From contig JAAFIL010000013.1 of assembly GCA_013297775.1 (NCBI GenBank), forward strand, positions 1-64,000: a stretch of DNA of 64,000 bases, read 5' to 3'. This document shows positions 19,557-60,854 of the stretch, piece after piece. The stretch comes from Bacteroidota bacterium. GTDB taxonomy: Bacteria > Bacteroidota > Bacteroidia > B-17B0 > Aurantibacillaceae. A program made the position numbers and the translations under genes. Under the pieces are notes generated by a model, which was given only the letters and a program-made list of their open reading frames with translations, was not told the origin of the DNA and made no database searches. Position 1 is the first letter of the stretch. Every line of letters begins with the position of its first letter.

Positions 19557-19574
19557 CCTTAAATAAAAGAACCG

Positions 19575-20183: not shown

Positions 20184-20218
20184 TGAATAGAACTATTTAA
20201 GCAGAAAGATAAACGCCA

Positions 20219-23200
20219 ATGAATACCGAAAACGTAAGAATTTTAAATCGCATTGTAGAAATAAATATTTCTAATGTAAAATATGCCGACATTGAACTTT
20301 GCGGCAACACCTGTTTTGTGGGTACTAATAATTTTGGAAAAACTTCGCTGCAACGGGCCATTTTGTTTTTTTACAGTGCCAATAGCCGTGGTTTAGGGAT
20401 AGCCCAATCGCAAAAAAGTTTTGAAGAACATTATTTCAGATACGAAAACTCTTACCTCGTTTATGAAATTGCTACCGAAGAAAAAAACTTTTTTGTAATG
20501 GTGTATCGCCACAACAAACTCGTGTTCCGCTTTGTTGATGCGCCTTACGATGCTGATTTCTTTTTTAATGCTAACGACGAGGCCATGAAAATTAAAGAAA
20601 TTATTTCGGGACTCGAAAAACGTGGCATTTACATCTCGAACCAAATTGATACATTTGAACGCTACCGTAATATTATTTTTGGAACTGAAACCGATAAACA
20701 ATTAGCCAAGTTCCATTTATTAAAAGGTAACGAAAAATACCAAAACATCCCAAAATCAATCACCAATGTATTTTTAAGTTCTAAAAATAGTATTGACTCG
20801 CGCTTTATTAAAGATTTTATTGCCAACTCGTTAACCACCGAAAACTCTAGCATACGCTTAGAGCAAGTAGAACGCCAGTTGCGCCAGTTTAATGAAAAAT
20901 ATACCGACATTGAAACGTTTATTAAAAAGGAAACGCAACAGCTTATTGAACTCATTGATAAAAAGTACGATCAAGTGCATTTATTAAAAGGTTCGCAAAT
21001 GGAACTGGCCGATAAATTAGGCAGCAGCCTACGCTTTGCCGAATCGCAAAATGAAGCCATACGCGAAGCCTCTAAAAAGAAAGAAGAAGAACTAGAAATT
21101 TTAACCGAAGACCACGAAAAGCTAATCAGCGAAATAGATAACAAACAAGGCAACGTGCGCGAAGAAATTGGTTACTACGATAAATCTATTCGCGATGCCA
21201 ATAAACGTTTGCGCGACTATAAAGATAAAAACATAGAAGAAGCCGTAGAAAAAAATGCCGAGCGCGAAAAGTTACAAGTTGAGCAAAACATTGCACGCCG
21301 CGAATACGAAAGTTTAACAAGCAATGTAGCCAGTATCGAATTAAAATATGCCTCGTTGTTAGAGCAATTGCGAAATGATAAAATGGCTTACATTAACACC
21401 ATTAATGCCAAAACCAGCGAAATATTTAATCATTACAACGAATTGCAATTATTACAAAAAAATGAATTTAATAAACGCGAGTCGGAATTAAAAACTAAAC
21501 GTGAAGAAGCCTTTAGCGAAGTAAATGCCGAAGTAACCGCCAAACAAATTGAATTTAATGAATTAAAAAGCGATGAAAAAGTAATTCGTAATACCCGTTT
21601 TTACGAAGCCGAAATTAAAAATATTGAAACTGAATTGGCCGAGTTACGCGCCATCTCGTATAAAAATAAAAGTGAACGTGCCATTAAACAAAACATGGTT
21701 CAAACCTTACAACGCGAATGGGAAGCCATAGAAGCTAAGTTGAAAACCTCACTCAGCAACGAAGTAAACCGCACCAATGGCGAAATCATTAAAATTAAAA
21801 ACGAAATTAAAGACATCGAATCGAAGCTAAACGTGCAACACGATGCGTTTTATGGTTTCTTAGAAAAAAATGTAAAAGATTGGCACCACACCATTGGCAA
21901 AGTGGTAAACGAAAAATTATTGTTCCGAACAGATATTAACCCCGAACTAAAAGAAGAAACCCTTAAAACCCTTTATGGCGTTAGCTTAAACTTAGAAAGT
22001 GTTGATGTCGTTTCTAAATCTATTGAAGAATATCAATTTGAAAAAAACGAACGCCTTGCTTTAATAAGAGATTTAGAAGAAGCTTTAAATGCGTTTCAAA
22101 CGAGTAATAACGAAGAAAAAATGTTGGCCGCTGATAAATATGGTAAACAATTGGGCGAGTTTAAAGAAGATGTGAAAGTGTTAAGCTACTCGTTAGATTT
22201 AGCGGATAAACGTGAGAAAAAATTAATGATTGAACTCGAAGACTGGCAAATGAAAGCAGGTGGCGAGGTAGAGCAATCGTTAAGCGGCAATCGTCAACGT
22301 TTAAATATTGTAGAAGAAGAGTTAACCTTATTAAATAAACGTAAAAATAATTTAGTAGATGATTTTAATCGCCAGCTCGACCAATTAAAAGTGTATAGTG
22401 AAGAGCGTTTACAAGATTTAAAATCGCGTCAAGAAACTGAAATTAGCGAATTGGAAGTCGAGAAAAAAAATCAGGTTAAAGAATTTGAGTCGAAAGAAGA
22501 AGAAATTAGTAAAGAAAAAGAAACTAATTTTAAATCGAAAGGAGTTGATAGTAAACAATTAAAACAAGTTGAAATGCGCTTAAAAGAAGTGCAAGAAGCC
22601 TTGAAAGAAATTGACCAATATGCCCAGTTAGTAAGCGATTACTTAAAAGACAAACGCGATATTTTTGACAAACTCCCCGACTTCATTCAGAAAAAAGAAG
22701 AGTACGTTAAATCGAATAACGAATTAACTGCACAAGCCGAAGAAACCACTCGTAAGTTTAATTTAAAACGGATGGAATTGAATAAACAAAAACGAGCGTT
22801 TGATGAAGAGTTAATTGAGTTTAACAACGGCGTTAATTTTTACAGCAATAACTTCCGCGAAACGCCAGTGTATGCTAAGTACTCCGAAATTATTGAACGT
22901 GCCGAAGCTAAACGAACCAATTACAACATCATGGATTTGTGTACGCAATTATTAAAAAACGATTCGCATTTTAATGAAGAGTATGGTGCGTTTCAACGTT
23001 ATGTAAACGACTTTTCGGGCCGTTTCCGTTTAGATAACCATTTTAATTTTATTATACGAAACGATGCTACACAAGCCGAATACGAACGATTTGCGCAAAA
23101 CCTACGATCGTTTATTAATGAAAATAAAATCGAATTGTCTATTGCCGAAACGGCTACTCAAATTGGTTTAGTAACCGATAGTATTGCCACTAAGGTAAAA

Positions 23201-23908
23201 GAACTTAGCGGACAAAAAGATAAAATTCAACACATCATTACCTTAATTGCCGAAGATTTTAAGAAAGCTGAATTTGAAGAAAGTAAACTCATCGAATTTA
23301 TTAAAATTAAAATTGAAGAATCGGATAATAAAGTTTATAAACTCTTAAAACGTATTGAAGAGTTTCGCGAAGAACATGGTTTAATTTATAACGAAGGTTT
23401 ATTTAACACCGACTTTGCAACAGGTACTAAACGCGAAATTAGTGGGCGTGCCGTTAAATTACTCGAACAATTGCGCAGTGCGATTAAGGAACAAGAACAA
23501 GAAGAAATTCGTTTACAAGATTTATTTGAATTAAAATTCAATATTAAAGAAGGGATGAACGAAACAGGGTGGACACATAAAATTGATAGCATTGGTAGCA
23601 CAGGCACCGACATCTTGGTAAAAGCAATTATCTACATTACGTTGTTGCATGTGTTTATTAAAGAATCGAGCCACCGCAGTAGCAAAGACTTTAAAGTACA
23701 TTGTATCATTGATGAGGTGGGACAAATTTCGGCGCATTATTTACGCGAGTTATTAAAGTTTGCCAAAAACCGAAATATTATGATGATTAATGGTTTACCA
23801 AATAAGAGCGGATTAGAAAGCCATTACAAGTACACGTATCAATTCCGTAAAGAAGACAGCGGCAATGTGCGCATTTTCCCGAGTATTGTTACCGAGGTAG
23901 AAGCGTAA
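20219..23908 (+). CDS. mksB: MksB/JetC-like SMC ATPase
   Basis: A 1229-residue SMC-type ATPase of the MukB/MksB/JetC branch. The Walker A loop G-T-N-N-F-G-K-T-S is at residues 35-43. The ABC-type signature S-T-G-T-D-I-L-V-K-A begins near 1127. Walker B C-I-I-D-E-V-G has its Asp-Glu at 1165-1166. In between lies a very long, charged, heptad-rich coiled coil (about 220-900 and 970-1090) interrupted by a more globular region near 900-970. Such ATPases extrude DNA loops, working with a kleisin and a KITE protein, which are encoded just upstream. In Wadjet systems a fourth gene (JetD, toprim-type nuclease) follows and cuts plasmids; here a terminator and unrelated minus-strand genes follow instead. 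This fits a chromosome-organising MksBEF better than a complete defence system. Confidence 0.85.
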   Translation: MNTENVRILNRIVEINISNVKYADIELCGNTCFVGTNNFGKTSLQRAILFFYSANSRGLGIAQSQKSFEEHYFRYENSYLVYEIATEEKNFFVMVYRHNKLVFRFVDAPYDADFFFNANDEAMKIKEIISGLEKRGIYISNQIDTFERYRNIIFGTETDKQLAKFHLLKGNEKYQNIPKSITNVFLSSKNSIDSRFIKDFIANSLTTENSSIRLEQVERQLRQFNEKYTDIETFIKKETQQLIELIDKKYDQVHLLKGSQMELADKLGSSLRFAESQNEAIREASKKKEEELEILTEDHEKLISEIDNKQGNVREEIGYYDKSIRDANKRLRDYKDKNIEEAVEKNAEREKLQVEQNIARREYESLTSNVASIELKYASLLEQLRNDKMAYINTINAKTSEIFNHYNELQLLQKNEFNKRESELKTKREEAFSEVNAEVTAKQIEFNELKSDEKVIRNTRFYEAEIKNIETELAELRAISYKNKSERAIKQNMVQTLQREWEAIEAKLKTSLSNEVNRTNGEIIKIKNEIKDIESKLNVQHDAFYGFLEKNVKDWHHTIGKVVNEKLLFRTDINPELKEETLKTLYGVSLNLESVDVVSKSIEEYQFEKNERLALIRDLEEALNAFQTSNNEEKMLAADKYGKQLGEFKEDVKVLSYSLDLADKREKKLMIELEDWQMKAGGEVEQSLSGNRQRLNIVEEELTLLNKRKNNLVDDFNRQLDQLKVYSEERLQDLKSRQETEISELEVEKKNQVKEFESKEEEISKEKETNFKSKGVDSKQLKQVEMRLKEVQEALKEIDQYAQLVSDYLKDKRDIFDKLPDFIQKKEEYVKSNNELTAQAEETTRKFNLKRMELNKQKRAFDEELIEFNNGVNFYSNNFRETPVYAKYSEIIERAEAKRTNYNIMDLCTQLLKNDSHFNEEYGAFQRYVNDFSGRFRLDNHFNFIIRNDATQAEYERFAQNLRSFINENKIELSIAETATQIGLVTDSIATKVKELSGQKDKIQHIITLIAEDFKKAEFEESKLIEFIKIKIEESDNKVYKLLKRIEEFREEHGLIYNEGLFNTDFATGTKREISGRAVKLLEQLRSAIKEQEQEEIRLQDLFELKFNIKEGMNETGWTHKIDSIGSTGTDILVKAIIYITLLHVFIKESSHRSSKDFKVHCIIDEVGQISAHYLRELLKFAKNRNIMMINGLPNKSGLESHYKYTYQFRKEDSGNVRIFPSIVTEVEA

Positions 23909-24816: not shown

Positions 24817-25035
24817 AACATTTAATTGTTTTAAATTATTCCCTACTCGTATGGCTTTTCAGAGTACGTCCCGTTTTTTTAAGTGGATTCTACTCCACAC
24901 ACTATAAAAAATTTTACGAATTAAAATTATAACATTCAAAAGCTAATCTTAGCCATATAAATAATCGAATTGAAAACGAGTATTATTACTAGGTTATGAA
25001 TTCCTCTAGGTATAAATAAGGGGAGATAAATACGA
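24817..25035 (-). promoter_or_regulatory. Shared structured leader, copy B
   Basis: Strongly similar to copy A near the gene and to copy C over about 220 bp, including the distal segment around 24960-25035 (a TATAC-CTAGAG-AATTCATAACCT block). On the minus strand it contains TTTTGAATGTTATAATTTT, a clean GTGGA/TCCAC hairpin (24883-24898), TTAAAAAAACGGGA and a TACTC/GAGTA stem (24844-24866). No gene lies between 24817 and 25203; the 64-codon frame at 25045-25239 is not believed. Confidence 0.7.
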
Positions 25036-34293: not shown

Positions 34294-34455
34294 TTACACT
34301 AAGTTAAACTATATTTATTAGTTTTCATATACCAATTACAAGGTATAATTCCCCGTTAATCATTTAGTTGATAATTCTGTTAATTTTTTATTTTCGATGA
34401 AGGTGCGGCGTTACCATTAAAAACCCGAACTTCAAAGGAAGTTTAATTGTGTAAT

Positions 34456-37161
34456 ATGTCGAAAATTAGAGTGGGTATTTTGTTTGGTGGCCCGAGTAAA
34501 GAACGTGAAATTTCGTTTGCTGGCGGACGCACTGTTTATGATAATTTGAATAAATCTATCTTTGAGCCCATCCCTTTGTTTATAGATTCGTTTGGGCATT
34601 TTATAGAGTTGGATTGGTCTTATATTTACAAAGGCACCATCCGCGATTTTTATCCTCCTGTTTCTTTTTTACCAAGTCAGTCAGCGTTTCAATTATACCT
34701 CGAAAACCTCGAAAATTTAAGCATCGAAACACACGAGGCCATGATGCAACACATTGGCAAACCCGTAAAAATAGAATCGTTAAAGCAAAAAATAGATTTT
34801 GCATTTCTGTGTTTGCACGGTTCTTATGGCGAGGATGGGCGTTTACAAGGCTTGTTAGAGTATTTAAAAATTCCATACAGTGGCTCGGGTATTTTAGCGA
34901 GTTCGATTGGGATGAACAAAGCCATTCAAAAAGAATTAATGATTAAATCGGGCTTTAATAGCCCACCGTATTTAGTAATTAACCGAAATGCTTGGATTAA
35001 CGGCGAGTACAAAGGGCTGTTTGCAAAAGTAAAATCAGAAATTCAATTACCTTGTGTGGTAAAGCCCGCCAATCAAGGCTCTAGCATTGGCGTAAGTATT
35101 TTAGCGCAAGATAATGAATTGGCGTTTATGAAAGCCGTTGAAAAAGCCTTGTTTACCCGTTGGCTAGATGCCAGCGAATGGCAAGGATTTAGCGATGAAG
35201 AGAAACACGTGTATATAAAAACGTTAACCGATATTCGCGAAGGTATTGGAATGCCCATCCACATTAGCCAAGGCGCACCCAACGCGCCTACCATTCACTC
35301 GCCCGATGCTTTGCTAAATTATTTGAACCTCCATTTAAAGACCGATGGTATGGTGTTAGAAAGTTTAGACGGCGAAAGTGAAGTACTTGTTGAAGGCTTC
35401 ATTAGTGGAAAAGAATTTTCGTGTATTGTGATGGAAGATGAAAAAGGAACAGCCATTGCCTTGCCACCCACCGAAATACGCAAAGGACACGAGTTGTTTG
35501 ATTACCGCAGTAAATATTTACCCGGCTTATCGCGTAAAATTACGCCCATTGCCATTGCTAACGAGCAAATTGAAGCCATTCGGGTAGCTTGCGAAAAATT
35601 ATTTTACGATTTAAAGTTCGATGTGTATGCGCGCATAGATGGGTTTATCACCGAAGCAGGAAAAATTTTTCTGAATGATCCGAATACAACAAGCGGCATG
35701 ATGCCCTCTTCATTCTTCTTTCATCAAGCCGCCGAAATTGGATTAAACCCTTCTCAATTTATTACTTATATCATTCACACTTCCTTAATAAAACGAATTA
35801 AGGATAGCAACAATGCACACACGTACAACGCTTTATTAACACAGCTTAATCAAGCCATTGCCAACGAACACGAGGGTACAAGCACCAAACAAAAGGTAGC
35901 CGTGGTGCTGGGTGGCTACTCATCCGAACGGCACATTTCGGTAGAGAGCGGACGTAATATTTTTGAGAAATTAGCGTCTTCCGAAAAATACGCGCCCATC
36001 CCTTTTTTTTTAACAGGCTCTAACGACCACCACGAATTATATATTATTCCCATCAACGTTTTACTAAAAGACAACGCCGATGATATAAAGGAAAAAGTAA
36101 ACCATTATGTGGTGCATCCTGTTATTGAAAGGATAAAAGAAAAATGTGCGGGCATCACGCATTTATTTACAGGTGGAAATGCCTTAACTAAGCCGCAACG
36201 TATTTCATATACAGACTTAGCTCAATTGGTAGGGCAAGTGTTTATTGCTTTGCATGGTCGCCCGGGCGAAGATGGTGCTATACAAGCCGAGTTAGATAAA
36301 TTGGGTTTACCTTACAACGGATCCGATAAACTAAGTTCAGCCATTACTATTGACAAGTATCGTACCAACGAAATTTTAAAACAGAATGGGTATTTAGTAG
36401 CCGAGCATATTTTAATTTCTACAAAAGAATGGGAAAATAAAGAACACGTAAAACACCAATTGCAAACCCAAATTGGTTATCCATTTATTGCGAAGCCAGT
36501 TGACGACGGGTGCAGTAGTGCGGTGAAAAAAATAAAAACATTTGAAGAGTTTGAAGCTTTTGCAACGCTAATGTTTAGAAACGATGTTGCGTTAGACCTT
36601 CGAGCAGCGACCACATTGCACATTAAAGATAAAGAAGAGTTTCCGCAAAAAACGGTGATACTCGTTGAAGAGTTAATTAGTAAAAAAGAAGCGCGCCATT
36701 TTTTAGAAGTAACTGGCGGCATGTTAACGCGCTACAACTCATCGGGCGAGGTGGAGTACGAAGTGTTTGAAGCCAGTGAGGCTCTGGCAGAGGGCGATAT
36801 ATTAAGTTTGGAGGAAAAATTTTTGGCAGGGCAAGGGCAAAATATTACACCAGCAAGGTATGCCCGCAACGCTAACGAACGGCAAATTATTAGCGAACAA
36901 GTTAAAACCGCATTAGGCGGTGCTGCCAAAGTGTTAGGCGTTATGGGCTATTGCCGCATAGACGCATTTGTGCGCGTATTCGATGATTTACGAACCGAAG
37001 TTATTTTTATAGAAGTGAACTCGTTGCCCGGCATGACCCCCGCCACTTGTATTTATCACCAAGCGGCCATAAACAATTATAAGCCCTATGAGTTTATAGA
37101 TCGTATTTTAGAGTTTGGACAAGCGCGTTTAAAACATCAAGCCGTCGTTAACCATTCTTAA
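34456..37161 (+). CDS. Double D-alanine-D-alanine ligase-like protein
   Basis: Two ATP-grasp ligase modules in one chain. I start at the ATG at 34456 (M-S-K-I-R-V-G-I-L-F-G-G-P-S), not the TTG three codons earlier, giving 901 residues. Module 1 (1-470) has L-H-G-S-Y-G-E-D-G, V-V-K-P-A-N-Q-G-S-S-I-G and A-R-I-D-G-F with a final metal motif L-N-D-P-N-T-T-S-G-M. Module 2 (about 477-901) restarts with V-A-V-V-L-G-G-Y-S-S-E-R, then L-H-G-R-P-G-E-D-G, A-K-P-V-D-D-G-C-S-S, and I-E-V-N-S-L-P-G-M-T. Normal Ddl is about 300-370 residues. Module 2 keeps the canonical E-x-N; module 1 has D-x-N and lacks the Pro-Gly. Whether it makes D-Ala-D-Ala or another dipeptide is unknown. polX follows 12 bp later. 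Confidence 0.88.
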   Translation: MSKIRVGILFGGPSKEREISFAGGRTVYDNLNKSIFEPIPLFIDSFGHFIELDWSYIYKGTIRDFYPPVSFLPSQSAFQLYLENLENLSIETHEAMMQHIGKPVKIESLKQKIDFAFLCLHGSYGEDGRLQGLLEYLKIPYSGSGILASSIGMNKAIQKELMIKSGFNSPPYLVINRNAWINGEYKGLFAKVKSEIQLPCVVKPANQGSSIGVSILAQDNELAFMKAVEKALFTRWLDASEWQGFSDEEKHVYIKTLTDIREGIGMPIHISQGAPNAPTIHSPDALLNYLNLHLKTDGMVLESLDGESEVLVEGFISGKEFSCIVMEDEKGTAIALPPTEIRKGHELFDYRSKYLPGLSRKITPIAIANEQIEAIRVACEKLFYDLKFDVYARIDGFITEAGKIFLNDPNTTSGMMPSSFFFHQAAEIGLNPSQFITYIIHTSLIKRIKDSNNAHTYNALLTQLNQAIANEHEGTSTKQKVAVVLGGYSSERHISVESGRNIFEKLASSEKYAPIPFFLTGSNDHHELYIIPINVLLKDNADDIKEKVNHYVVHPVIERIKEKCAGITHLFTGGNALTKPQRISYTDLAQLVGQVFIALHGRPGEDGAIQAELDKLGLPYNGSDKLSSAITIDKYRTNEILKQNGYLVAEHILISTKEWENKEHVKHQLQTQIGYPFIAKPVDDGCSSAVKKIKTFEEFEAFATLMFRNDVALDLRAATTLHIKDKEEFPQKTVILVEELISKKEARHFLEVTGGMLTRYNSSGEVEYEVFEASEALAEGDILSLEEKFLAGQGQNITPARYARNANERQIISEQVKTALGGAAKVLGVMGYCRIDAFVRVFDDLRTEVIFIEVNSLPGMTPATCIYHQAAINNYKPYEFIDRILEFGQARLKHQAVVNHS

Positions 37162-38946: not shown

Positions 38947-39645
38947 ATGTCGAAATTTAGTTTAAAAAGCATCTTCATTAAATCGGAAGAGACGGACGAC
39001 TCCTCAAAACAAGCGGAGACTAACGTTAAAAAAACAGAGGAAACAGGTTCTAACCTAAAGTTTCCAAGTCATAACTCATCTGCTTACATCCCTCCAGCAG
39101 TATCTATAAGCGATGGCATTTTAAATCAGGTGGTAGAGTTGTACGAAAAAGGATTCGACTCTTTAAATAAACCAGGGTACGATTTTTATGAGTTTTTTAA
39201 AGCCATCCATTCTGTTAATGATTTCTCGTCGGGAGCCTACAAAATGGCCTACCAAATGGGGAAAGTGATGAATGGTACTATCGAAAAAAATGCGCTCATT
39301 CAAAGTGCCGATAGTTATATTTCTGAAATTAATAAAGTACACGAGGGTTATCGGGTGCAAGGCGAGGGTAAGCGTAACGAGTTGACCAAAGCGCAAACAA
39401 ACGAGAAGCAAGCACTAAGTAATGAAATTGTAAGTATTGAGAATCAAATCAATCAATTAAAAAATCAAATTATTCAACTTGAAGCAAATAAACGTCAGCG
39501 CGAAAGTGAATTAGCTCCTATTGATGGCAAATATCAAACAGAGTTAAAGTTGGTAGCCGAAAAATTACAAGCAAACGATTCGGCTCGCGAAATACTTACT
39601 GCAAAAATAAATACCGTAAAGCACGGTATATTAACCAATATCTAA
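38947..39645 (+). CDS. Cytoplasmic coiled-coil protein of the OmpA/ABC operon
   Basis: A 232-residue soluble protein. The first ~55 residues are Ser/Lys/Glu/Thr-rich and probably disordered; residues 60-120 look globular (I-S-D-G-I-L-N-Q-V-V-E-L-Y-E-K-G, then D-F-Y-E-F-F-K-A-I); residues 130-225 form a long coiled coil with a Q-I-N-Q-L-K-N-Q-I-I-Q-L-E heptad stretch. I do not recognise a named family. It is the first gene of a five-gene operon with a membrane-bound coiled-coil protein and an ABC transporter, 26 bp before the next start, and probably works as a cytoplasmic partner of that machinery. Confidence 0.75.
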   Translation: MSKFSLKSIFIKSEETDDSSKQAETNVKKTEETGSNLKFPSHNSSAYIPPAVSISDGILNQVVELYEKGFDSLNKPGYDFYEFFKAIHSVNDFSSGAYKMAYQMGKVMNGTIEKNALIQSADSYISEINKVHEGYRVQGEGKRNELTKAQTNEKQALSNEIVSIENQINQLKNQIIQLEANKRQRESELAPIDGKYQTELKLVAEKLQANDSAREILTAKINTVKHGILTNI

Positions 39646-39671
39646 TTTAATTTATAATAAATATATCTACT

Positions 39672-40802
39672 ATGACATCCAATTCTTCTTCCTCATTCAG
39701 TTCAGAGAAAATGTTGCAACTTCCTATTTTAAAACATTTTGATGCAGCTGAGTTAAGTTTAACCAATGCTTCTAAAAAATTTCGTCCAGGTGAAAAAGGC
39801 ACAACGAGTGTATTAACTTTGGTGGTGTTTGCAGCGTTGGGATATTTAACGTGGATTTATGTTTTGCCACCCGTATTTAGAGCCATTGGCGAACTATTAG
39901 CATTAGCCATAACAGCAGTTGGTATTGTATTACTCATTTTATTGGCACCACTAATTTTTAAAATGTTGCGAAGTTTTGCTCGCTATCTAAACAAGTTATT
40001 TATTAAATATAATCCGTTTGGTGAACTCGAAATTCAAAAAGAAAAGATGATGGCCAATCGCGAAAATTTTAAAAAAGCGAAAGCAAAAATTAAATCGTTG
40101 AAAAGTAACATGGAAACCGAAGCGGTAAAATCGGAACAAGAAGCCAAAAATTTTCAAACGCACGTTTTAGAATTACAAAAAAAAGCGGAAGCTATTAAGT
40201 TGAAACTGGCAGCCATGGATCGTAATTTGGGCGAGAAAGCCAAGGAAAGCGATGAATATGTTGATTTGCAAGCGGCGCAGTTAAAGGTATTATCAGAGGC
40301 GCAGCGGGTAGCGCATCAACTCGAACAAAGTTCTAATTTTGTTCAAAAATATGGTGTGCGTGCAAATATTATGGGTAAACTCGATCGTAAACTTACTCTT
40401 GTGCAAACGGCAATGGATATTAAAATTTCGGATTTTGAAACCAGTATTAGTATGCTTCGCAAGGAATATGAATTTGCTGAGTCGGCTAAAAATGCCACCG
40501 AGCAAGCTAAATCGGCCATGTTGTTTACTAAAAGTTGGGAGCTTGATTATGCCTTAGATGTTGTAACCAATACAATTGCTATGGACATTTCTATAACACA
40601 AGAAAATTTATCGGACTTAGATACCTTAACCTCGAAGTATTCGTTAGACAGCGACGAGTTGTATTCGAAGTTAGATACCTTAACGGATAAAATTAAAACA
40701 GGGCAAAACGCCATACCCGAGGCGGGTAAGTTTAATAATCCGAATTATAAATTAAGTTCGCAAGATAAAGCTAACAGTGGCGGATTTTCTGATCTATTTT
40801 AA
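39672..40802 (+). CDS. Membrane-anchored coiled-coil protein (PspA-like features)
   Basis: A 376-residue protein. Two adjacent hydrophobic segments (about 45-65 and 72-95) anchor it in the inner membrane, and most of the rest (about 120-340) is an Ala/Lys/Glu-rich coiled coil with F-K-K-A-K-A-K-I-K-S-L-K and L-E-L-Q-K-K-A-E-A-I-K-L-K. The coiled part has the look of PspA/Vipp1-like envelope-stress proteins but this is by composition, not a firm assignment. It lies 26 bp after the first operon gene and 40 bp before the OmpA fusion. Confidence 0.7.
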   Translation: MTSNSSSSFSSEKMLQLPILKHFDAAELSLTNASKKFRPGEKGTTSVLTLVVFAALGYLTWIYVLPPVFRAIGELLALAITAVGIVLLILLAPLIFKMLRSFARYLNKLFIKYNPFGELEIQKEKMMANRENFKKAKAKIKSLKSNMETEAVKSEQEAKNFQTHVLELQKKAEAIKLKLAAMDRNLGEKAKESDEYVDLQAAQLKVLSEAQRVAHQLEQSSNFVQKYGVRANIMGKLDRKLTLVQTAMDIKISDFETSISMLRKEYEFAESAKNATEQAKSAMLFTKSWELDYALDVVTNTIAMDISITQENLSDLDTLTSKYSLDSDELYSKLDTLTDKIKTGQNAIPEAGKFNNPNYKLSSQDKANSGGFSDLF

Positions 40803-40842
40803 TTTTTAAAAATTTTAAACCAATATATAAAACATAAAAACT

Positions 40843-42639
40843 ATGAGTTTCTGGAGTAAGTTAACCGGTGCAGGTAAAATTTCAATTGCCCTTTTAGTAG
40901 CAGCCCCTATCGTGTATGGCGTCTATAAATTGGCACCTGGTATAAAAGTAGAAGATGCTAAAACCGTTAAAAAAATTGAGATCAATGGCGGTGATGTAAA
41001 TAATGCAACTGGTGCCGACGAGTTGCCTTTACCTACCGAGGAGGTATCGTCGGAAGTTAGTGGAAAACCTTTAGTGCGTATTTCGGGTTATGCTTGGAAT
41101 GCACAATCAGGCATTATTGTAGCCAATGGCGGTGTCCGCACGGCTAAAGGATCTTTAATGGAAAAAAATGGAGTTAACCTCGAAATTTTACGCGAAGATT
41201 GGTTGAGCGAATTGCGTAATAAACAAATGAAGTTTATTGAAGAGTTCGATAAAGGAAATGCCAATCCAACGGAAGGGGTAATGGGTTTAATGATTATGGG
41301 TGATGGTGCACCGTATTATATTTCATCGGCGCAACAGGCATTAAACGATAAGTATGGTAATAAATACCATTTAGAAATTGTTGGTTCATTAGGCTTATCT
41401 TATGGCGAGGATAAATTAATTGGTCCCATTAGCTGGAAAAAAGATCCTAAAAGTATGAAAGGATCACTAATTAGTGCAGTTATTGGCGATGGAGACTGGG
41501 TAGTAGCCGTTAATTATGCTTCGGCAAATGGTTTAAAAATTAATCCCGACCCAAGTACCTACGATGAGGAGGCTGTTAACTTTTTAGCAGCTGAAAATGA
41601 TGATTACATTGAAGCCTCAAAAGTGCTCATTAAATCGCAATTAGAAAATTATAGTATAGAATTAAAAGAAGTAAAAGGCGGTAAGTTAACGGGTAAAAAA
41701 ATTAGTAAAAAGGTAGATGGTTGCGCTACTTGGACTCCTGGCGATAAGATGGTATTTGACGCATTGAATGGATTTACAGATATTGTTTCTACCAAAGAAT
41801 TTAATAACCAAATGTCAACGGTATTAATAGTAGTAAAAGAATGGGCCGATAAAAATCAAGATGTAATTACCAATATTTTAAAATCGTCGTTTACAGCTAG
41901 TAATCAAATGAAGCAACACGATAGTTGGCGAAAACAAGCTGCTGCTTGCGTAGCCAAAACTTTCAATTTAGAAAATGCGGATTATTGGTATAAAATGTTT
42001 GCAGGGCAAAAGGCTATAAAAAATGGCATTGAGTATAACATGGGTGGTTCGCGTGTGTTTAACTATGCCGATGCCATGCAGTATTATGGCATCACAGATG
42101 GCGTTAATCGTTACAAGGCGGTTTACGACCAAGTGAGTTCTTATTTAACAGATCTCAATCCGATGGGCTTTAATCAATCGGTAAAGCGTGTTGTGCCTTA
42201 CGAAGAGGCTGTAAATTTATATTACATTAAAAATATTAACGACATCGAAAGCGGTGTTGCTACTAAAGCCGATTATTCGAAAATGGCAACGCAACAAATT
42301 GCATCGGGCGAATGGAAGATTAATTTTAAGACGGGAAGCACCGAAATCAATAGTTCGTCAAATATTGTATTAAATGAAATTTATAATTTATTAGTTCAAG
42401 CAGAAGATGCTAAACTGGAGCTAGAGGGCCATACAGATAATGTAGGTAACGAGCAATCCAATTTAGTATTATCAGAAGGACGTGCAAAAGCCGTTAAGCA
42501 ATATTTAATCCGTAAAGGGATCAATAGTGTTCGTTTTCAAAGTGTATCTGGAAAAGGTCAATCAGAACCTTTAGCCGACAATACCAATGAACAAGGACGA
42601 GCGCAAAACCGCCGTGTAGTTATTAAGCTCTTAAAGTAA
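40843..42639 (+). CDS. Substrate-binding protein fused to OmpA peptidoglycan-binding domain
   Basis: A 598-residue protein with three parts. An uncleaved-looking N-terminal membrane anchor (A-L-L-V-A-A-P-I-V-Y-G-V-Y near 15-28) is followed by a periplasmic NitT/TauT- or phosphate-type solute-binding region (about 70-470) and a C-terminal OmpA domain (about 490-598) with F-K-T-G-S-T-E-I, L-E-G-H-T-D-N-V-G, L-S-E-G-R-A-K-A-V-K-Q-Y-L and N-R-R-V-V-I-K. The OmpA part should bind peptidoglycan while the N-terminus holds the inner membrane, so the protein would span the periplasm next to its transporter. Permease and ATPase genes follow at 5 bp and 3 bp. The ligand is unknown. Confidence 0.82.
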   Translation: MSFWSKLTGAGKISIALLVAAPIVYGVYKLAPGIKVEDAKTVKKIEINGGDVNNATGADELPLPTEEVSSEVSGKPLVRISGYAWNAQSGIIVANGGVRTAKGSLMEKNGVNLEILREDWLSELRNKQMKFIEEFDKGNANPTEGVMGLMIMGDGAPYYISSAQQALNDKYGNKYHLEIVGSLGLSYGEDKLIGPISWKKDPKSMKGSLISAVIGDGDWVVAVNYASANGLKINPDPSTYDEEAVNFLAAENDDYIEASKVLIKSQLENYSIELKEVKGGKLTGKKISKKVDGCATWTPGDKMVFDALNGFTDIVSTKEFNNQMSTVLIVVKEWADKNQDVITNILKSSFTASNQMKQHDSWRKQAAACVAKTFNLENADYWYKMFAGQKAIKNGIEYNMGGSRVFNYADAMQYYGITDGVNRYKAVYDQVSSYLTDLNPMGFNQSVKRVVPYEEAVNLYYIKNINDIESGVATKADYSKMATQQIASGEWKINFKTGSTEINSSSNIVLNEIYNLLVQAEDAKLELEGHTDNVGNEQSNLVLSEGRAKAVKQYLIRKGINSVRFQSVSGKGQSEPLADNTNEQGRAQNRRVVIKLLK

Positions 42640-42643
42640 CAAC

Positions 42644-43417
42644 ATGTTTAAAAAATTAATAACACCGCTTGAAAAGCTAAAAGCACCATTTAATCTTTAC
42701 ATCATTGTATTTTGGTTATTAATGGTGTTGGGGGTTTGGTTTGCCGCCACTTCGGGACAAAAGCATTTAATCCCCAGTCCAGCACAAGTGTTTAAAGGAT
42801 TTTCCGATCTTTTTGCCGAAGGATTGGTAACTCATGTTGGTAGTTCACTAGCATTATGTTTTCAATCGGTGTTATATTCTATCATTGTTTCGTTAATTGT
42901 TGTTTACCTATCGCCTTTACCATTGTTAAAGCCATTGGCCGCCATGATTAGTAAATTCAGGTATTTGCCATTAACGGGAATTACTTATTATTTTACAGTA
43001 TTTTTTCAAACGGCAAGGGGTATGCAAATTGCAGTGTTAGTCGTTTTTATGAGTACATTTTTTATCACCTCTTTGTTATCGGTTATTAAAGATATTCCTA
43101 ACGAGGAGTTCGACCATGCGCGTACGCTTAAATGCAGCAGGTGGGAAACACTTTGGGAGGTAATTGTGAAAGGTCGCCTCGATTATGTGTTTGATGTGTT
43201 ACGTCAAAATTTAGCAATTGTATGGATGATGATTGTAACCGTTGAATCTATTTTAGTAGCTGAGGGCGGATTGGGTGTGCTTATCAAAAACAACGATAAG
43301 TTTATGAACCACGGTAAAATTTTTGCGTTGCAAATTGTGATTTTAATTTTGGGTTTATTGATAGATGTATTTTTAAATTTTTGCCGTAAATCACTATTCC
43401 GTTATTCTAAATTTTAA
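42644..43417 (+). CDS. ABC transporter permease (SsuC/TauC-like)
   Basis: A 257-residue inner-membrane protein with about six helices and the binding-protein-dependent transport fold: I-V-F-W-L-L-M-V-L-G-V near the start and the EAA-like coupling loop D-H-A-R-T-L-K-C-S-R-W-E-T-L-W-E in the C-terminal half. It resembles the nitrate/sulfonate/taurine permease family. It starts 5 bp after the OmpA fusion and stops 3 bp before the ATPase gene, and presumably forms a homodimer with them. The transported compound is not known. Confidence 0.88.
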   Translation: MFKKLITPLEKLKAPFNLYIIVFWLLMVLGVWFAATSGQKHLIPSPAQVFKGFSDLFAEGLVTHVGSSLALCFQSVLYSIIVSLIVVYLSPLPLLKPLAAMISKFRYLPLTGITYYFTVFFQTARGMQIAVLVVFMSTFFITSLLSVIKDIPNEEFDHARTLKCSRWETLWEVIVKGRLDYVFDVLRQNLAIVWMMIVTVESILVAEGGLGVLIKNNDKFMNHGKIFALQIVILILGLLIDVFLNFCRKSLFRYSKF

Positions 43418-43419
43418 GT

Positions 43420-44253
43420 ATGCCCTATTCTATAAAAGATACCATTCTCTATGTAGAAAATCTAAGCGTAGCTTACGATGGTAAAGTCATCATAAAAGAT
43501 ATTAATTTCACCGAAAAAGACATCCACCGCGAGGATGTAGTAACGGGACAAGTTATTGCCATTTTAGGACGATCGGGTAGAGGCAAGTCCACGTTATTTA
43601 AAGCCTTAACAGGTTTGGTAAAACCTACTTCGGGGCAAGTACTTATCCGCGATATTAAAAATAGTACCGAAACCGATATCAAAGCAAAAATGGTTGAAGA
43701 AGGCGATGTTGGATTTGTAGATCAGAAATATACTTTGTTTAGAAATAAAACCATTTTACAAGCGTTAAAGTTTGCTTTACGAACATCTAATTTAAGTGAG
43801 GCGGAAAAGCAATCAAAAATTGAGACGTACATTAAAGAATGGGGGTTAGAGAAAGTAAAAAACCAATACCCTAATGAGTTATCGGGTGGGCAAAGGCAAC
43901 GCACTGCGGTTATCGAACAAATTTTTAGTTCGGGTAATTATATGATTATGGATGAACCCTTTTCGGGTTTAGATGTAGGTAATGTAGAAGATGTAAAACG
44001 CTCCATACATAAGATAGGAGAAGACCATACATTAAATACAGTTATTTTTTCGACGCATGATATTGAACTTGCGGTAAGTTTAGCCGATTCCATTTATGTG
44101 ATAGGCTACCCAACAATTAATGGGAAACTAGAAAATTACGGTACCATTGTGGGGCATTTCGATTTAAAAGCCATGCACATAGCTTGGCAAAAATTTGGAG
44201 CTAGTCATTTACAATTAGTCGAGCAAATTAAAACACTTATGCTCAATAGTTAA
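43420..44253 (+). CDS. ABC transporter ATP-binding protein
   Basis: A 277-residue ATPase with Walker A G-R-S-G-R-G-K-S-T near residue 55, the Q-loop V-D-Q-K-Y, signature L-S-G-G-Q-R-Q-R, Walker B Y-M-I-M-D-E-P-F and the switch H-D. It is the last gene of the five-gene operon and drives the permease upstream. Its last codons overlap the end of the convergent histidine kinase gene by 4 bp. An insertion between the first strand and the P-loop (E-K-D-I-H-R-E-D-V-V-T) is slightly unusual. Confidence 0.92.
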   Translation: MPYSIKDTILYVENLSVAYDGKVIIKDINFTEKDIHREDVVTGQVIAILGRSGRGKSTLFKALTGLVKPTSGQVLIRDIKNSTETDIKAKMVEEGDVGFVDQKYTLFRNKTILQALKFALRTSNLSEAEKQSKIETYIKEWGLEKVKNQYPNELSGGQRQRTAVIEQIFSSGNYMIMDEPFSGLDVGNVEDVKRSIHKIGEDHTLNTVIFSTHDIELAVSLADSIYVIGYPTINGKLENYGTIVGHFDLKAMHIAWQKFGASHLQLVEQIKTLMLNS

Positions 44254-45629
44254 TTGCTTTTTGTTGGTGTATAATTAAATACCATTTGAAAGGTGCTTCC
44301 TTGTCCTAGAACCGAACTGGCTTCGAGCTTCCCGTTATGAATTTGCATAATATTTTTACAAATTGTTAAGCCAATGCCAGAGCCACCTTCTCGCGTTGTA
44401 AAAAATGGAATAAAAATTTTATCTAAATTTTCTTTTGCAATGCCTCGTCCATTGTCGGTTACGATTATACTATAAGCATCGGGTGTTTTTTGTGTGCTAA
44501 TTTTAATTAAGCCATTGGGGTTATCCTTCACCGCATGAATGGCATTGGTAATTAGATTAATTAAAACTTGGTCAATCAATTTTTTATCCAATTCGAGTGT
44601 ATCGCGTTCGTTAATATCTTCCAAATTTAAAAGCGTGCCTTGTTTTTGAATGAGCGGTTTCATTAAATCGAGGGCTTCACTAATTAACTCTTCTACATTA
44701 ATGGTTTTTAAAATTGGACTCGGTAACTCAGCAACTAAGCGGTAATCTTTCACAAAATCGGCAATCCCATCCGAACGTTTTTTAATCGTTCGTACTGCGG
44801 TTTGAATATCTTCTATATCTTCTTTATCTGTAATTTCGGTTTTACCTTCTAACATGGTGTTTAAGGTATCACTCAAAGAGGCAATGGGTGTTATCGAATT
44901 GAGTATTTCGTGCGATAAGACATTAATGAGTTTATTCCATGCTTCTATTTCTTTTTGCTCTACTTCATCTTTAATGTTTTGAATAGTAATGATGAGGTGT
45001 GTTTTATTAATTAATTGTAGTGGCATTACCTCTAAACTAAGTTGAGAGCGTGTGCCTTCAATTAACATCTCTAAAAATTTTTTACCGCCACCTTTAATTT
45101 GTTTGATTTCATTTACCAATTCTGGGATGTGATCATCGAAACGCCGCCAATATTGGTACTTTGGTATGTGAAGAATAGAAAGCATGGCTTCGTTCATAAA
45201 TACTATTTCTTCGCGTTCGTTTTCATTTTCTAAAGCTTCGGCATAAATAGTAATAACACCAAACTTCACTTTTTCTAAGATGGCTTGGAAGAGTAAAAAA
45301 ATACGTTCACGCTCTAACTCCAAATTTTTACTGTGTAAAATAATTGCATTAAACGATTGGTAAAGCCGTTTAGTACTGCCACTACTTTGTGTAGTTGAAA
45401 ATACCATAGAGTAATCTTTATTTTTTAGAGTATCTGCAAACCGCTCAACATCGCGTGTAATTTTATTGGTAAGTTGTATTAATAAAATAACTTGAAGTAC
45501 AATTAACGCGCCAAGCCCAATAATGGAGAACCATAGTGTAGTATTTTGATAGAGGTGTACGAGCAGCCACAAACTAAAAAATAGTAAGATAACTCTAATA
45601 ATAATTTTAAAACCAAGACTTTTAAACAT
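44250..45629 (-). CDS. Sensor histidine kinase, NtrY-like
   Basis: A 459-residue kinase. Two membrane helices (about 8-24 and 30-50) with almost no periplasmic loop are followed by a PAS-like region (about 100-215), a dimerisation/phosphoacceptor helix with L-S-H-E-I-L-N-S-I-T-P (phospho-His) and a HATPase domain with N-A-I-H-A-V (N box), D-N-G-R-G-I-A (G1) and G-G-S-G-I-G-L (G2). The lack of a sensing loop suggests a cytoplasmic or membrane-state signal. No response regulator is adjacent, so its partner is unknown; PorX is on the same strand but 16 kb away. It overlaps the ABC ATPase gene tail to tail by 4 bp. Confidence 0.9.
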   Translation of the reverse strand: MFKSLGFKIIIRVILLFFSLWLLVHLYQNTTLWFSIIGLGALIVLQVILLIQLTNKITRDVERFADTLKNKDYSMVFSTTQSSGSTKRLYQSFNAIILHSKNLELERERIFLLFQAILEKVKFGVITIYAEALENENEREEIVFMNEAMLSILHIPKYQYWRRFDDHIPELVNEIKQIKGGGKKFLEMLIEGTRSQLSLEVMPLQLINKTHLIITIQNIKDEVEQKEIEAWNKLINVLSHEILNSITPIASLSDTLNTMLEGKTEITDKEDIEDIQTAVRTIKKRSDGIADFVKDYRLVAELPSPILKTINVEELISEALDLMKPLIQKQGTLLNLEDINERDTLELDKKLIDQVLINLITNAIHAVKDNPNGLIKISTQKTPDAYSIIVTDNGRGIAKENLDKIFIPFFTTREGGSGIGLTICKNIMQIHNGKLEASSVLGQGSTFQMVFNYTPTKSN

Positions 45630-48780: not shown

Positions 48781-50226
48781 ATGATTGTTGGTAGAAATAC
48801 TGAAATAGCAGAAATGAAATCCTTATTGGAGGATAAACGTCCGCATTTATTAATGTTAACGGGGCGTCGTCGGGTAGGAAAAACCTTTTTAATTAATGAA
48901 GTATATAAGCACCATTTAGTTTTTTCATTTACTGGTACAAAAGATGGATTAATCGGAAATCAACTTCGGAAATTTGATGGAAAATTAAAGGAGTATAGTT
49001 CTAAGCGATTACGTTATGATGTTTCGAAAAACTGGTACGAGGCATTCGTTCAACTCAAAAAAATGTTGCAAGCACCACGGCGTAGTAAGCGTAAGCGCGT
49101 TGTTTTTTTTGATGAATTTCCGTGGATAAACAGCCATAACTCGCAATTTTTTAATGAGTTTAGTTATTGGTGGAACGATTGGGCAAGCCTTCAAAATATA
49201 GTAGTTGTTATTAGTGGTTCGGCTACTGCTTGGATGATAAATAAAGTAATAAACGATAGAGGTGGTATGCATAACAGAGTAACTCGACGCATTCATTTAT
49301 CGCCATTTACCTTAGCCGAAACCCGTGCATACGTTAAACGTATAAATCCACGCTTGAGCGATTATAATATTTTAGAGTTATACATGTGTATGGGAGGTAT
49401 TCCATTGTATTTAAGTCAGATTAAGCCAGGCGAAAGCCCCTCGCAAAGCATTTATAATAGTTGTTTTAAAAAGACAGGGCTACTCCACAATGAGTTTAAT
49501 GATTTGTATGCTTCTTTATTTGAAAACCATGAAAAGCATTTAGCAGTTATCCGTTTATTAGCTGCTAAGTGGTCGGGGTTAACGCGGACCACTATTGCTA
49601 GTCAGAGCGGATTAGGTAATGGCGGCGGTTTAACCAAGGTTTTAAGCGAATTAGAATCATGTCATTTTATATTGCAAACACCAGCTTATGGCACTCAAAA
49701 AAAAGGTTCGGTTTATCGTTTAGCAGATGAGTATAGTAGGTTTTATTTAAGTTTTATTGAGGGAAATCGTTACACTCATCAACGTAACTGGTTGGCTTTT
49801 CAGTCAACGTCGAAGCAGTTTATTGCTTGGCAAGGCTATGCTTTTGAAAATATTTGTATTAAGCACGCTTCTATTATTAAAAAGGAATTGGGAATTAGTG
49901 GTATTTTAAGCGAAACGTATAGTTATTATCAGCGGGGTACAAAACAACAGAAGGGATTGCAAATAGACTTATTAATAGACCGCTCGGATAAAGCTATTAA
50001 TTTATGTGAAGTTAAATTTTATAATAAACCCATTAAGCCAAGCCTAGCCCTTTCTGATACTTTACGCCATAAGCGTTCACTATTTATTGAACAAACTCAA
50101 ACTCGTAAAGCTGTTTTTACAACGCTTATATCAACATTTGGAATTGAAACCACAAATTCTGTGATGCCGGACGTTGATACAGAAGTTACATTATCTACAC
50201 TTTTCGAGTTATCTTTTTTTGATTAA
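48781..50226 (+). CDS. AAA ATPase with C-terminal nuclease-like (DUF234) domain
   Basis: A 481-residue protein of the archaeal/bacterial AAA_14-type ATPase family. The P-loop L-T-G-R-R-R-V-G-K-T-F is near residues 25-35 and Walker B V-V-F-F-D-E-F-P-W near 115; S-G-S-A-T-A-W follows as a sensor-1 motif. The middle (about 240-330) resembles a winged helix. The C-terminal ~120 residues show a PD-(D/E)xK-like signature, L-Q-I-D-L-L-I-D near 405 and C-E-V-K-F-Y, as in the DUF234 restriction-endonuclease-like domain. It stands alone, bracketed by hairpin repeats, and so behaves like a single-gene cassette. Function unknown; a role in mobile-element or defence biology is inference. Confidence 0.88.
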   Translation: MIVGRNTEIAEMKSLLEDKRPHLLMLTGRRRVGKTFLINEVYKHHLVFSFTGTKDGLIGNQLRKFDGKLKEYSSKRLRYDVSKNWYEAFVQLKKMLQAPRRSKRKRVVFFDEFPWINSHNSQFFNEFSYWWNDWASLQNIVVVISGSATAWMINKVINDRGGMHNRVTRRIHLSPFTLAETRAYVKRINPRLSDYNILELYMCMGGIPLYLSQIKPGESPSQSIYNSCFKKTGLLHNEFNDLYASLFENHEKHLAVIRLLAAKWSGLTRTTIASQSGLGNGGGLTKVLSELESCHFILQTPAYGTQKKGSVYRLADEYSRFYLSFIEGNRYTHQRNWLAFQSTSKQFIAWQGYAFENICIKHASIIKKELGISGILSETYSYYQRGTKQQKGLQIDLLIDRSDKAINLCEVKFYNKPIKPSLALSDTLRHKRSLFIEQTQTRKAVFTTLISTFGIETTNSVMPDVDTEVTLSTLFELSFFD

Positions 50227-58754: not shown

Positions 58755-60854
58755 ATGAAAAAACATTTATTTTTAGGGAGTGCTTTACTAATCAGTATTA
58801 GTGCCTATCCTCAACAAGAGCGGAAGTTTAAAGCAACAGGATGCGTAAACACTGCTAACGAATTAAAAAAAAGGTTTGCGTTAGATGAAACGACTTTACC
58901 TCAACAAAAAATGACTCAAAATGTAAACACTACATTAGAAGAGCCTACAACTGCTACAAATGCAAAATCGAGTGCTGCTAGTGCTGCCATTACAGTGCTT
59001 CCTATCGGTGGCTCAATTAACGCGTTTGGGATGCTAGAGAGTGCTACCAAAAATTTACGGTGGAATAAAAATGTAGATGCTGTAACGTTTGTACACCGTA
59101 AAAGCCCAACGTATGTAGCTTCGCCCGGAAATAATTCAGGAGCTATTGTAACTTTACTTTCGGCTAACATGGGTGCCACTTGGGATAGTACTTGTATTTG
59201 GGCCGACGCAATTAATGCAGGTCGTTTTCCACAAGGCGGTTTATACAGTGCGCCAGGTAACACCAATTTACAAAACGCTTACATTGTAGGGATGGGTCCA
59301 ACTGTAGCTAGTAATGCTTTTACAGGAACTTGGTTAGCCAGTAAGCAGGTTAGTGTAACTCCTAAAAACACGCAGGGTACCGATGTGCAATTTTTTGGTA
59401 ACGCTGCACCAACAGGGCCTTTTGGCAAAGCCGATTATGTAAGAACTGGTTTCGATATCACTGACGATGGCGTAGTACACGGTATTGGTCCTGTATTTGT
59501 TGATATTAATAACACAACTACCGACGGTTTAAGTGGCGCAGAAATTATTAAAGGTGTATTTAGTGCGGGTGCTTTCGTATGGAGTTCAACAAACATTACC
59601 CCACCTGTTACTACTGATGTGAGCGGAGATAAAGTATTAACCAACACACCTAACATGGCTTGGAACGAAGCAGGCACAGTAGGTTATGCTATGTTTTTAG
59701 GTTCTCGTCAAGGAGCAACTGGTTCTAATGTAGGCTTACAACCACTTATTTACAAATCAACAAATAGTGGGGCTTCTTGGTCTTTATTGAATAATATAGA
59801 TTTCAACTTACCAGCCATGCAAACAGTTTTAGACCGTCTTGCGCCAGTAACTACCAATTCTAACTTGGTTGTACCTTACTTTAGCACTGGCGACGGGATT
59901 GATATAACAGTAGATGCTAACAATAATTTACACATTGGCTGTTTTATTCAATCAGCCAATAGCAATCACCCCGACTCTACTTTCTTTATAAGTACTTTTG
60001 GTGGACGACGTTTTATTTATACTGGTGGTGGTTTCCCTTATGTTTATGACTTTATGGGTGATGGCTCTGCTCCTTGGAAAGTTTTCACCATTGACTCAGC
60101 ACAAACCGAAGCACCAAGTGGTAACTCTGCCTCTTCAAGTTTCTCTGCCAATCCTATAACAGATGTTGATGCTAACGGTAACAAACAAGTTTCTAGTTCT
60201 CGTTTGCAACTTTCTCGAAGCATAGTGGGCGACCGCATTGCTTTCGTTTATGTAGAGGGTGATACGACTCAAACGACGAGTAAATTTTTACAATTTCCAA
60301 ACATAAAAGCACGTTTGGTGTGTACCGCTAACAATACAGTAACCATTGATCCCAATATCACAAATATGACCGCAAATTTACCTAGTGGTGCAATTAACAA
60401 CCGTGTTAAAGGGAAAGCGTATTTTCACCATGTATCTCCAAAGATGAAGGCAAGTTCAAATTCTTTATTTCAAATTCCAATTACAGTAACTAATAGTGCA
60501 CCATTGGTTTCACAAGGAGCCAATAGCCATTATTACATTTCTGGAGAAATTTCAAATTTTTCATGCACTGTAAATGTTGATGAAAATAAACCCAATGCTA
60601 AAGATTTAGCTTATGGTTTAATCCCTAATCCGGCAAAAGACAAAGTTAGTTTAAACGTAAAATTAAATACAGCTAATGCCATTGATGTATCGGTTTACAA
60701 CACGGTAGGTCAATTAGTAAAACAACTTAAAAACAATGGCGAAGTTGGAGAGAACAACATTTCATTGAGTTTAGAAAACTTAACATCAGGTATTTATATG
60801 GTAAAAGTTTCAGTAAATGGACTAACGACTACCAAAAAATTAATTGTTGAATAG
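58755..60854 (+). CDS. T9SS type A secreted protein, tandem paralogue 1
   Basis: A 699-residue secreted protein with signal peptide (M-K-K-H-L-F-L-G-S-A-L-L-I-S-I-S, ending A-Y-P-Q-Q). The large middle has BNR-like pieces such as K-S-T-N-S-G-A-S-W-S and S-A-N-M-G-A-T-W-D-S, so it is probably a beta-propeller. The T9SS type A sorting domain ends it: L-I-P-N-P-A-K-D-K-V, V-S-V-Y-N-T-V-G-Q-L-V and L-T-S-G-I-Y-M-V. It is a tandem duplicate of the gene at 61209 and is followed by its own terminator. Adhesin or hydrolase function is not apparent. Confidence 0.88.
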   Translation: MKKHLFLGSALLISISAYPQQERKFKATGCVNTANELKKRFALDETTLPQQKMTQNVNTTLEEPTTATNAKSSAASAAITVLPIGGSINAFGMLESATKNLRWNKNVDAVTFVHRKSPTYVASPGNNSGAIVTLLSANMGATWDSTCIWADAINAGRFPQGGLYSAPGNTNLQNAYIVGMGPTVASNAFTGTWLASKQVSVTPKNTQGTDVQFFGNAAPTGPFGKADYVRTGFDITDDGVVHGIGPVFVDINNTTTDGLSGAEIIKGVFSAGAFVWSSTNITPPVTTDVSGDKVLTNTPNMAWNEAGTVGYAMFLGSRQGATGSNVGLQPLIYKSTNSGASWSLLNNIDFNLPAMQTVLDRLAPVTTNSNLVVPYFSTGDGIDITVDANNNLHIGCFIQSANSNHPDSTFFISTFGGRRFIYTGGGFPYVYDFMGDGSAPWKVFTIDSAQTEAPSGNSASSSFSANPITDVDANGNKQVSSSRLQLSRSIVGDRIAFVYVEGDTTQTTSKFLQFPNIKARLVCTANNTVTIDPNITNMTANLPSGAINNRVKGKAYFHHVSPKMKASSNSLFQIPITVTNSAPLVSQGANSHYYISGEISNFSCTVNVDENKPNAKDLAYGLIPNPAKDKVSLNVKLNTANAIDVSVYNTVGQLVKQLKNNGEVGENNISLSLENLTSGIYMVKVSVNGLTTTKKLIVE

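Follow-up and report, generated by a model that had tools for sequence, protein, structure and literature searches.

A Bacteroidota branch of PspA-ABC-PBP/OmpA operons with a putative membrane-anchored PspA/Vipp1 relative

Gene set and predicted proteins

The DNA analysed here, referred to below as the window, comprises the first 64,000 nucleotides of contig JAAFIL010000013.1 from a Bacteroidota bacterium (assembly GCA_013297775.1), and contains a compact set of five genes at 38947-44253, all on the plus strand. Two of them encode coiled-coil proteins, one of which (gene 2) appears to be a remote, membrane-anchored relative of PspA and Vipp1, while the other three encode an ATP-binding cassette (ABC) transporter whose binding protein is predicted to be tethered to the cell wall. 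Judged from gene content and protein profiles, the set belongs to the PspA-ABC-PBP/OmpA operons (PBP, periplasmic binding protein), of which it forms a Bacteroidota branch; systems of this kind are known from gene context alone. The identity of the parts is highly probable. All five open reading frames (ORFs) named in an earlier note on this DNA were found, and the operon order and tight spacing described there were borne out, the intergenic gaps being 26, 40, 4 and 2 bp. Chance does not explain the arrangement, since dozens of distinct loci show the genes in this order. A search with the Bacteroidetes promoter pattern gave five matches in the window against 4.7 expected by chance, none of them upstream of gene 1. 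The features of the set are as follows.

38947..39645, plus strand: gene 1 (cc1), 232 aa, soluble coiled-coil protein
39672..40802, plus strand: gene 2 (cc2), 376 aa, putative membrane-anchored PspA/Vipp1 relative
39801..39983, plus strand: transmembrane hairpin of gene 2, residues 44-104 (hydropathy 2.2 and 2.9; AlphaFold2 helices H45-63 and H65-113)
40020..40697, plus strand: PspA-like helical region of gene 2, residues 117-342 (AlphaFold2 model; covered by the profile alignment to PspA)
40843..42639, plus strand: gene 3 (sbp), 598 aa, predicted transmembrane anchor, NitT/TauT-type substrate-binding domain and OmpA domain
40861..40932, plus strand: membrane anchor of gene 3, residues 7-30 (one N-terminal transmembrane segment by hydropathy, residues 7-25; AlphaFold2 helix H9-30)
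41065..42237, plus strand: substrate-binding domain of gene 3, about residues 75-465 (AlphaFold2 and Foldseek; motif DGCATWTPGD at 292-301)
42316..42630, plus strand: OmpA-like peptidoglycan-binding domain of gene 3, residues 492-596 (Pfam, 5.5e-20; motif HTDNVG...LSEGRA)
42644..43417, plus strand: gene 4, 257 aa, ABC permease, TauC/SaoP/NrtB-like
43420..44253, plus strand: gene 5, 277 aa, ABC ATPase

Among the bacterial proteins of the ESCRT-III superfamily are PspA and Vipp1, of which gene 2 is, on profile evidence, a remote relative with an added N-terminal transmembrane hairpin. In its AlphaFold2 model, which is of medium confidence (pLDDT 64), the hairpin is followed by helices H117-192, H194-283, H289-314 and H327-342 in the order seen in PspA, and the long alpha1 / alpha2-3 hairpin and the shorter helices of PspA/IM30 are present; the second helix of the transmembrane hairpin (H65-113) extends beyond the membrane span. 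The window protein itself had no PspA match in Pfam and none over a curated cut-off, but a homologue from another Bacteroidota family (L146:7225-8217) scores 35.2 bits with the PspA_IM30 model and so passes its curated cut-off, which is 33.9. A second homologue (L116) lies just below this cut-off with 33.5 bits, and two more, L060 from Chitinophaga and L123, match the model at 5e-4 and 7e-7, respectively. PspA_IM30 is the commonest Pfam match in the gene 2 family (6 of 18 members). Alignment of the gene 2 profile to the PspA profile by hhalign gave a probability of 84% (P 7.4e-6), whereas the controls, which were reversed sequences, gene 1 and 12 other helical proteins drawn from the same loci (mostly ATP synthase b subunits), gave 5.7% or less, with P 0.0066 at best. 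The top four matches in a profile search of PDB were all Vipp1/IM30, each of them individually weak (E 0.02-0.04); a direct PDB search with the gene 2 sequence alone returned nothing useful.

The product of gene 1 has no transmembrane segment by hydropathy and no Pfam match over a curated cut-off. It is built of an N-terminal motif SLKSIFI, a disordered linker with a KFP motif, a helical domain and a C-terminal coiled coil, and evolves fast; the N-terminal, KFP and N-x-x-G-x-D motifs are conserved. It is related to cc1-like proteins of Acidobacteriota (hhalign 72.8%). The earlier note had likened both coiled-coil proteins to PspA by composition, which is a weak basis for such a likeness; the likeness stands for gene 2 on the profile evidence and falls for gene 1, which was ruled out as a PspA relative (hhalign 5%).

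Besides the OmpA domain, Pfam found only a marginal NMT1-like match in the product of gene 3. The AlphaFold2 model of this protein (25-row alignment, mean pLDDT 83.9) consists of an N-terminal helix (residues 9-30), a two-lobed domain and an OmpA domain. The best solved Foldseek matches of the two-lobed domain include the nitrate-binding NrtA, the bicarbonate-binding CmpA, and TauA, with TM-scores by target length of 0.61-0.71, and the C-terminus shares 45% identity with the C-terminal domain of a Capnocytophaga OmpA found by structure search. A profile search of PDB with the binding domain gave no match, and the assignment of its type therefore rests on the fold search. The motif DGCATWTPGD resembles the 'DA...W.P' motif seen in proteins of the NitT/TauT class. 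Residues W297, P299 and T317 of the pocket region and, in the OmpA motif, D532 and R547 are invariant from Bacteroidota to Acidobacteriota, the latter two being the positions at which OmpA domains bind diaminopimelate. Because of this fold, the anchor and the conserved pocket-region and OmpA residues, the protein seems equipped for ligand binding, for anchoring in the inner membrane and for a hold on the wall. A binding protein held by both the inner membrane and the wall, as had been proposed in the earlier note, thus agrees with the predicted N-terminal transmembrane segment and the OmpA domain.

Gene 4 matches the Pfam family BPD_transp_1 over its cut-off (1.8e-7) and, among the NCBIfam models, SaoP (57.8 bits) and TauC (43 bits), both under their cut-offs. 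Gene 5 matches ABC_tran (Pfam, 6.2e-27) and has intact Walker A (GRSGRGKS), signature (LSGGQ), Walker B (MIMDEP) and H-loop (THD) motifs. On sequence and model evidence, genes 3-5 are predicted to form the core of a NitT/TauT-type ABC importer.

Distribution, gene order and neighbours

Full-length relatives of the binding protein were collected from genome contigs and by a profile search of whole genomes. They were found in 8 of the 396 genomes sampled from the window's phylum, in 40 of 121 genomes in the family of G222 (for which the label 'Hymenobacter-like' is a guess and carries no weight), in 5 of 149 genomes of Acidobacteriota (the phylum of G454) and in none of 399 genomes of Pseudomonadota (the phylum of G452), although the profile might miss remote forms. 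Within the window's genus, as delimited by the search tool, only the window genome and G027 have such a relative among 37 genomes searched. No binding domain was found in a plasmid search.

Gene order was tested by profiles after the removal of two duplicate entries (L127, identical to L031, and L147, identical to L044). Of the 57 distinct Bacteroidota loci whose sequence extends upstream of the binding protein, all contain gene 2 and 54 contain gene 1. The coiled-coil genes are thus not absent from most homologous loci, the finding that the earlier note had named as fatal to its reading, and the survey of the five-gene order that it had called for revealed strong conservation across Bacteroidota. 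In trees of the five proteins, built from 54 complete loci and the window, the same deep split separates the window together with Flavobacterium/Pedobacter from the rest (support 0.985-1.0), and distances correlate between the proteins at 0.92-0.99 overall and at 0.75-0.92 within the Flavobacterium group. The five genes have thus long been inherited together. In one locus (L051, 5829-13383), extra ORFs on the same strand occupy several gaps between the genes of the system, which is unusual for such a tight operon; they encode 456 and 245 aa, 186 aa, 273 aa (matching the candidate defence model PDC-S22) and 174 aa.

In all Flavobacterium/Pedobacter-type loci with downstream flank, a sixth gene encodes an AAA+ ATPase with the lid domain AAA_lid_6. 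It resembles the CbbX / SpoVK / EccA family (the nearest NCBIfam model is SpoVK, TIGR02881, 265 bits, below its cut-off) and differs from it in a distinct N-terminal part of about 220 aa. One carrier of this six-gene form is the culture-collection strain F. reichenbachii DSM 21791 (locus L034). The window genome encodes an 877-aa SpoVK/CbbX-type double-AAA+ protein (L126, 5306-7939, minus strand) that is unlinked to the operon and is possibly a stand-in for the AAA+ protein of the Flavobacterium form.

All five Acidobacteriota loci have PspA-type and/or transmembrane coiled-coil neighbours. The order in L141 is a gene 1-like gene, a true PspA (79.9 bits), a transmembrane coiled-coil gene on the opposite strand, the binding protein, the permease and the ATPase. 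L145 carries PspA, the binding protein, the permease, the ATPase, a transmembrane coiled-coil protein and an AAA+ protein as a single operon in one direction, and L142-L144 carry the binding protein, the permease, the ATPase, a transmembrane coiled-coil protein and a gene 1-like protein. The AAA+ protein of L145 and that of Flavobacterium are only weakly alike (hhalign 14%). Since both position and sequence match, gene 2 of the window probably corresponds to the PspA of L141, with the transmembrane hairpin added. Another candidate, that gene 2 is the counterpart of the Acidobacteriota transmembrane coiled-coil protein, was not supported (hhalign 2-5%, as against 84% to PspA).

The family PF04012 (PspA/IM30) had no match in the six frames of the window genome, and was over cut-off in one of 41 genomes searched. 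The end of gene 5 overlaps by 4 bp a histidine kinase gene on the minus strand (44250-45629), and a histidine kinase likewise converges on the operon in G027, which holds the only close homologue of the window kinase within the sampled genus. In loci of the G222 family, including L123 and L146, a histidine kinase lies a few kilobases downstream, and L146 also has an NtrC-like response regulator (by eye). These kinases are possibly regulatory, or stand near the set by chance, because such kinases are common.

Elsewhere in the window, several other features were recorded. A DUF805 cis-regulatory RNA (Rfam RF03081) was detected over the gathering score at 24836-24903 (minus strand). Two tandem ORFs of 699 aa with nearly identical N-termini (58755-60854 and 61209-63308) are apparently a recent duplication, and a 904-aa ORF (34447-37161) apparently contains two tandem D-Ala-D-Ala ligase-like modules (by eye). 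A three-gene set at 18318-23908 ends with a 1229-aa SMC/MukB-like ATPase and is Wadjet/Jet-like by eye, while PADLOC gave a weak AriA match for this ATPase and nothing more. A 481-aa ATPase (48781-50226) matches the PADLOC candidate defence family PDC-S27 at 1.7e-173.

Possible function and alternative explanations

The best overall explanation, which we rate slightly short of an even call, is that a wall-tethered transporter is coupled to a PspA-like scaffold. The binding protein would keep the transporter at wall-attached sites, and the state of the permease and ATPase would depend on whether ligand is bound, or on wall-to-membrane strain. This state would recruit or release the PspA-like protein at the cytoplasmic face, with the gene 1 product as an adaptor, and a membrane-stabilising or remodelling scaffold would form at envelope sites of need. 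In Flavobacterium and Pedobacter, the dedicated SpoVK/CbbX-type AAA+ protein would recycle the scaffold in a manner comparable to that of Vps4 and ESCRT-III. The coupling of transporter state to the scaffold, which is suggested by the constant linkage and the topology, is tentative and somewhat less than evenly probable. A stronger version, in which the transporter senses the wall-to-membrane distance or a periplasmic damage signal and directly switches the assembly of a membrane-anchored PspA/ESCRT-III-type scaffold for envelope repair in Bacteroidota lacking PspA, seems unlikely.

Several points weigh against the coupled scaffold. A Foldseek search with the gene 2 model, itself only of medium confidence, placed generic coiled coils at the top and Vipp1 (6zvr) at rank 42 with a probability of 0.95. 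Gene 1 is missing in three loci, all of the G222 family and checked by hand, and no AAA+ gene was seen in the window operon or in any Chitinophaga or G222-family locus. The literature yielded nothing on the function of such sets besides Ravi et al. (2024) and no experiment on any member. The core motifs of the importer are intact, so that simple uptake may still be what the set performs; the proposal of the earlier note that the set links envelope state to ATP use rather than serving simple uptake is not supported, given the NitT/TauT fold, the pocket-region motif and the intact ATPase motifs.

The main rival is an ordinary NitT/TauT-type importer with an accessory membrane protector. It would transport a small organic or inorganic anion or a vitamin precursor, the OmpA domain would hold the binding protein, and the PspA-like protein would stabilise the surrounding membrane; we regard this as doubtful and still a serious candidate. 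The binding domain resembles NrtA, CmpA, TauA and Thi5-type proteins, W297, P299 and T317 are invariant in the pocket-region motif, and the permease and ATPase motifs are intact, but no metabolic gene or other family recurs convincingly beside the set across the groups, Rfam searches of the operon from four sources revealed no known riboswitch beside it, and the transporter core always has a coiled-coil partner in the loci found. It might also be that the transporter is wall-linked and carries a compound derived from wall or membrane, such as a muropeptide or a lipid head group, and that the PspA-like protein reacts to nearby damage. The direct fusion of a peptidoglycan-binding domain to the ligand-binding domain and the PspA-type partner would suit such a role; however, proteins with the NitT/TauT fold are not known to bind ligands of this sort, and the neighbourhood holds no pointers to wall recycling, which makes this explanation quite improbable.

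Two further explanations have less in their favour. If the PspA likeness of gene 2 were a low-complexity helix similarity, the protein would be a generic transmembrane coiled coil, as the lack of a Pfam PspA match in the window protein and the poor discrimination of the fold search might suggest, but this is very improbable given that the L146 homologue passes the curated PspA cut-off, that reversed-sequence and decoy helical controls fail and that a true PspA occupies the gene 2 slot in L141. A system for phage defence or competition, with the OmpA protein working like ZorB of Zorya, would fit the patchy distribution and the match of the PADLOC ZorB models to the OmpA domain (2e-10). This match is limited to the generic OmpA domain, the operon has neither a ZorA/MotA-like gene nor an effector, PADLOC returned no defence model for genes 1, 2 and 4, and a role of this kind can be considered extremely improbable. 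Identity with Zorya itself was rejected, as only the OmpA domain matches ZorB and no ZorA model matches in the operon.

Comparison with known systems

The closest relatives in print are operons that Ravi et al. (2024, mSystems; PMC11237479) reported on the basis of gene context. Their passages on these operons place PspA, a transmembrane Snf7-like protein, an AAA+ protein, an ABC ATPase, a permease and PBPB-OmpA in one operon (for example, OGG56892.1) and suggest membrane remodelling linked to solute transport. According to the same passages, the AAA+ protein 'may occur' in such operons and is hence optional. The Acidobacteriota locus L145 matches this description gene for gene. The window set shares with it the binding protein with PBP and OmpA parts, the ABC ATPase, the permease and a PspA-type coiled-coil protein, and departs from it in that a putative transmembrane-anchored relative replaces PspA, gene 1 comes from another coiled-coil family and the set lacks a linked AAA+ gene. 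Gene 2 carries a transmembrane segment, like the Snf7-type protein of those operons, yet it aligns to PspA. The view of the earlier note that the whole set was undescribed therefore holds only in part: a close relative was already in print, while the Bacteroidota branch with a transmembrane-anchored PspA-like protein, in a genome without a PF04012 match, appears to be new, unless Table S3 of Ravi et al. lists the Bacteroidota form.

In the passages cited, assembly and recycling are called unknown for PspA homologues without an AAA partner (PMC11237479). The same operon with an AAA+ gene in cultivable Flavobacterium, and without one in Chitinophaga, the G222 family and the window, offers a natural comparison for the assembly and recycling of PspA/Vipp1 without Vps4, and one that pairs a membrane-fixed PspA-like protein with a wall-fixed transporter. 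The grouping of the genes is already published, and it is the cultivable Flavobacterium hosts that make the function of the operon testable. The set also hints where a function like that of the phage shock protein (PSP) system may be sought in Bacteroidota without canonical PspA.

PspB, PspC and PspF of the classical PSP system were matched by none of the five proteins in Pfam or NCBIfam. Gene 2 is like PspA/IM30 (Vipp1; PF04012) in the order of its helices and in its profile over residues ~117-342, and differs in its extra transmembrane hairpin and in that the window protein itself lies below detection by the Pfam model; a homologue is above the Pfam cut-off. With the NitT/TauT importers (NrtA-D, CmpA-D, TauABC, SsuABC), the window set shares the fold of the binding domain and the type of permease and ATPase; it differs from them in the membrane anchor and OmpA domain of its binding protein and in its constant coiled-coil neighbours.

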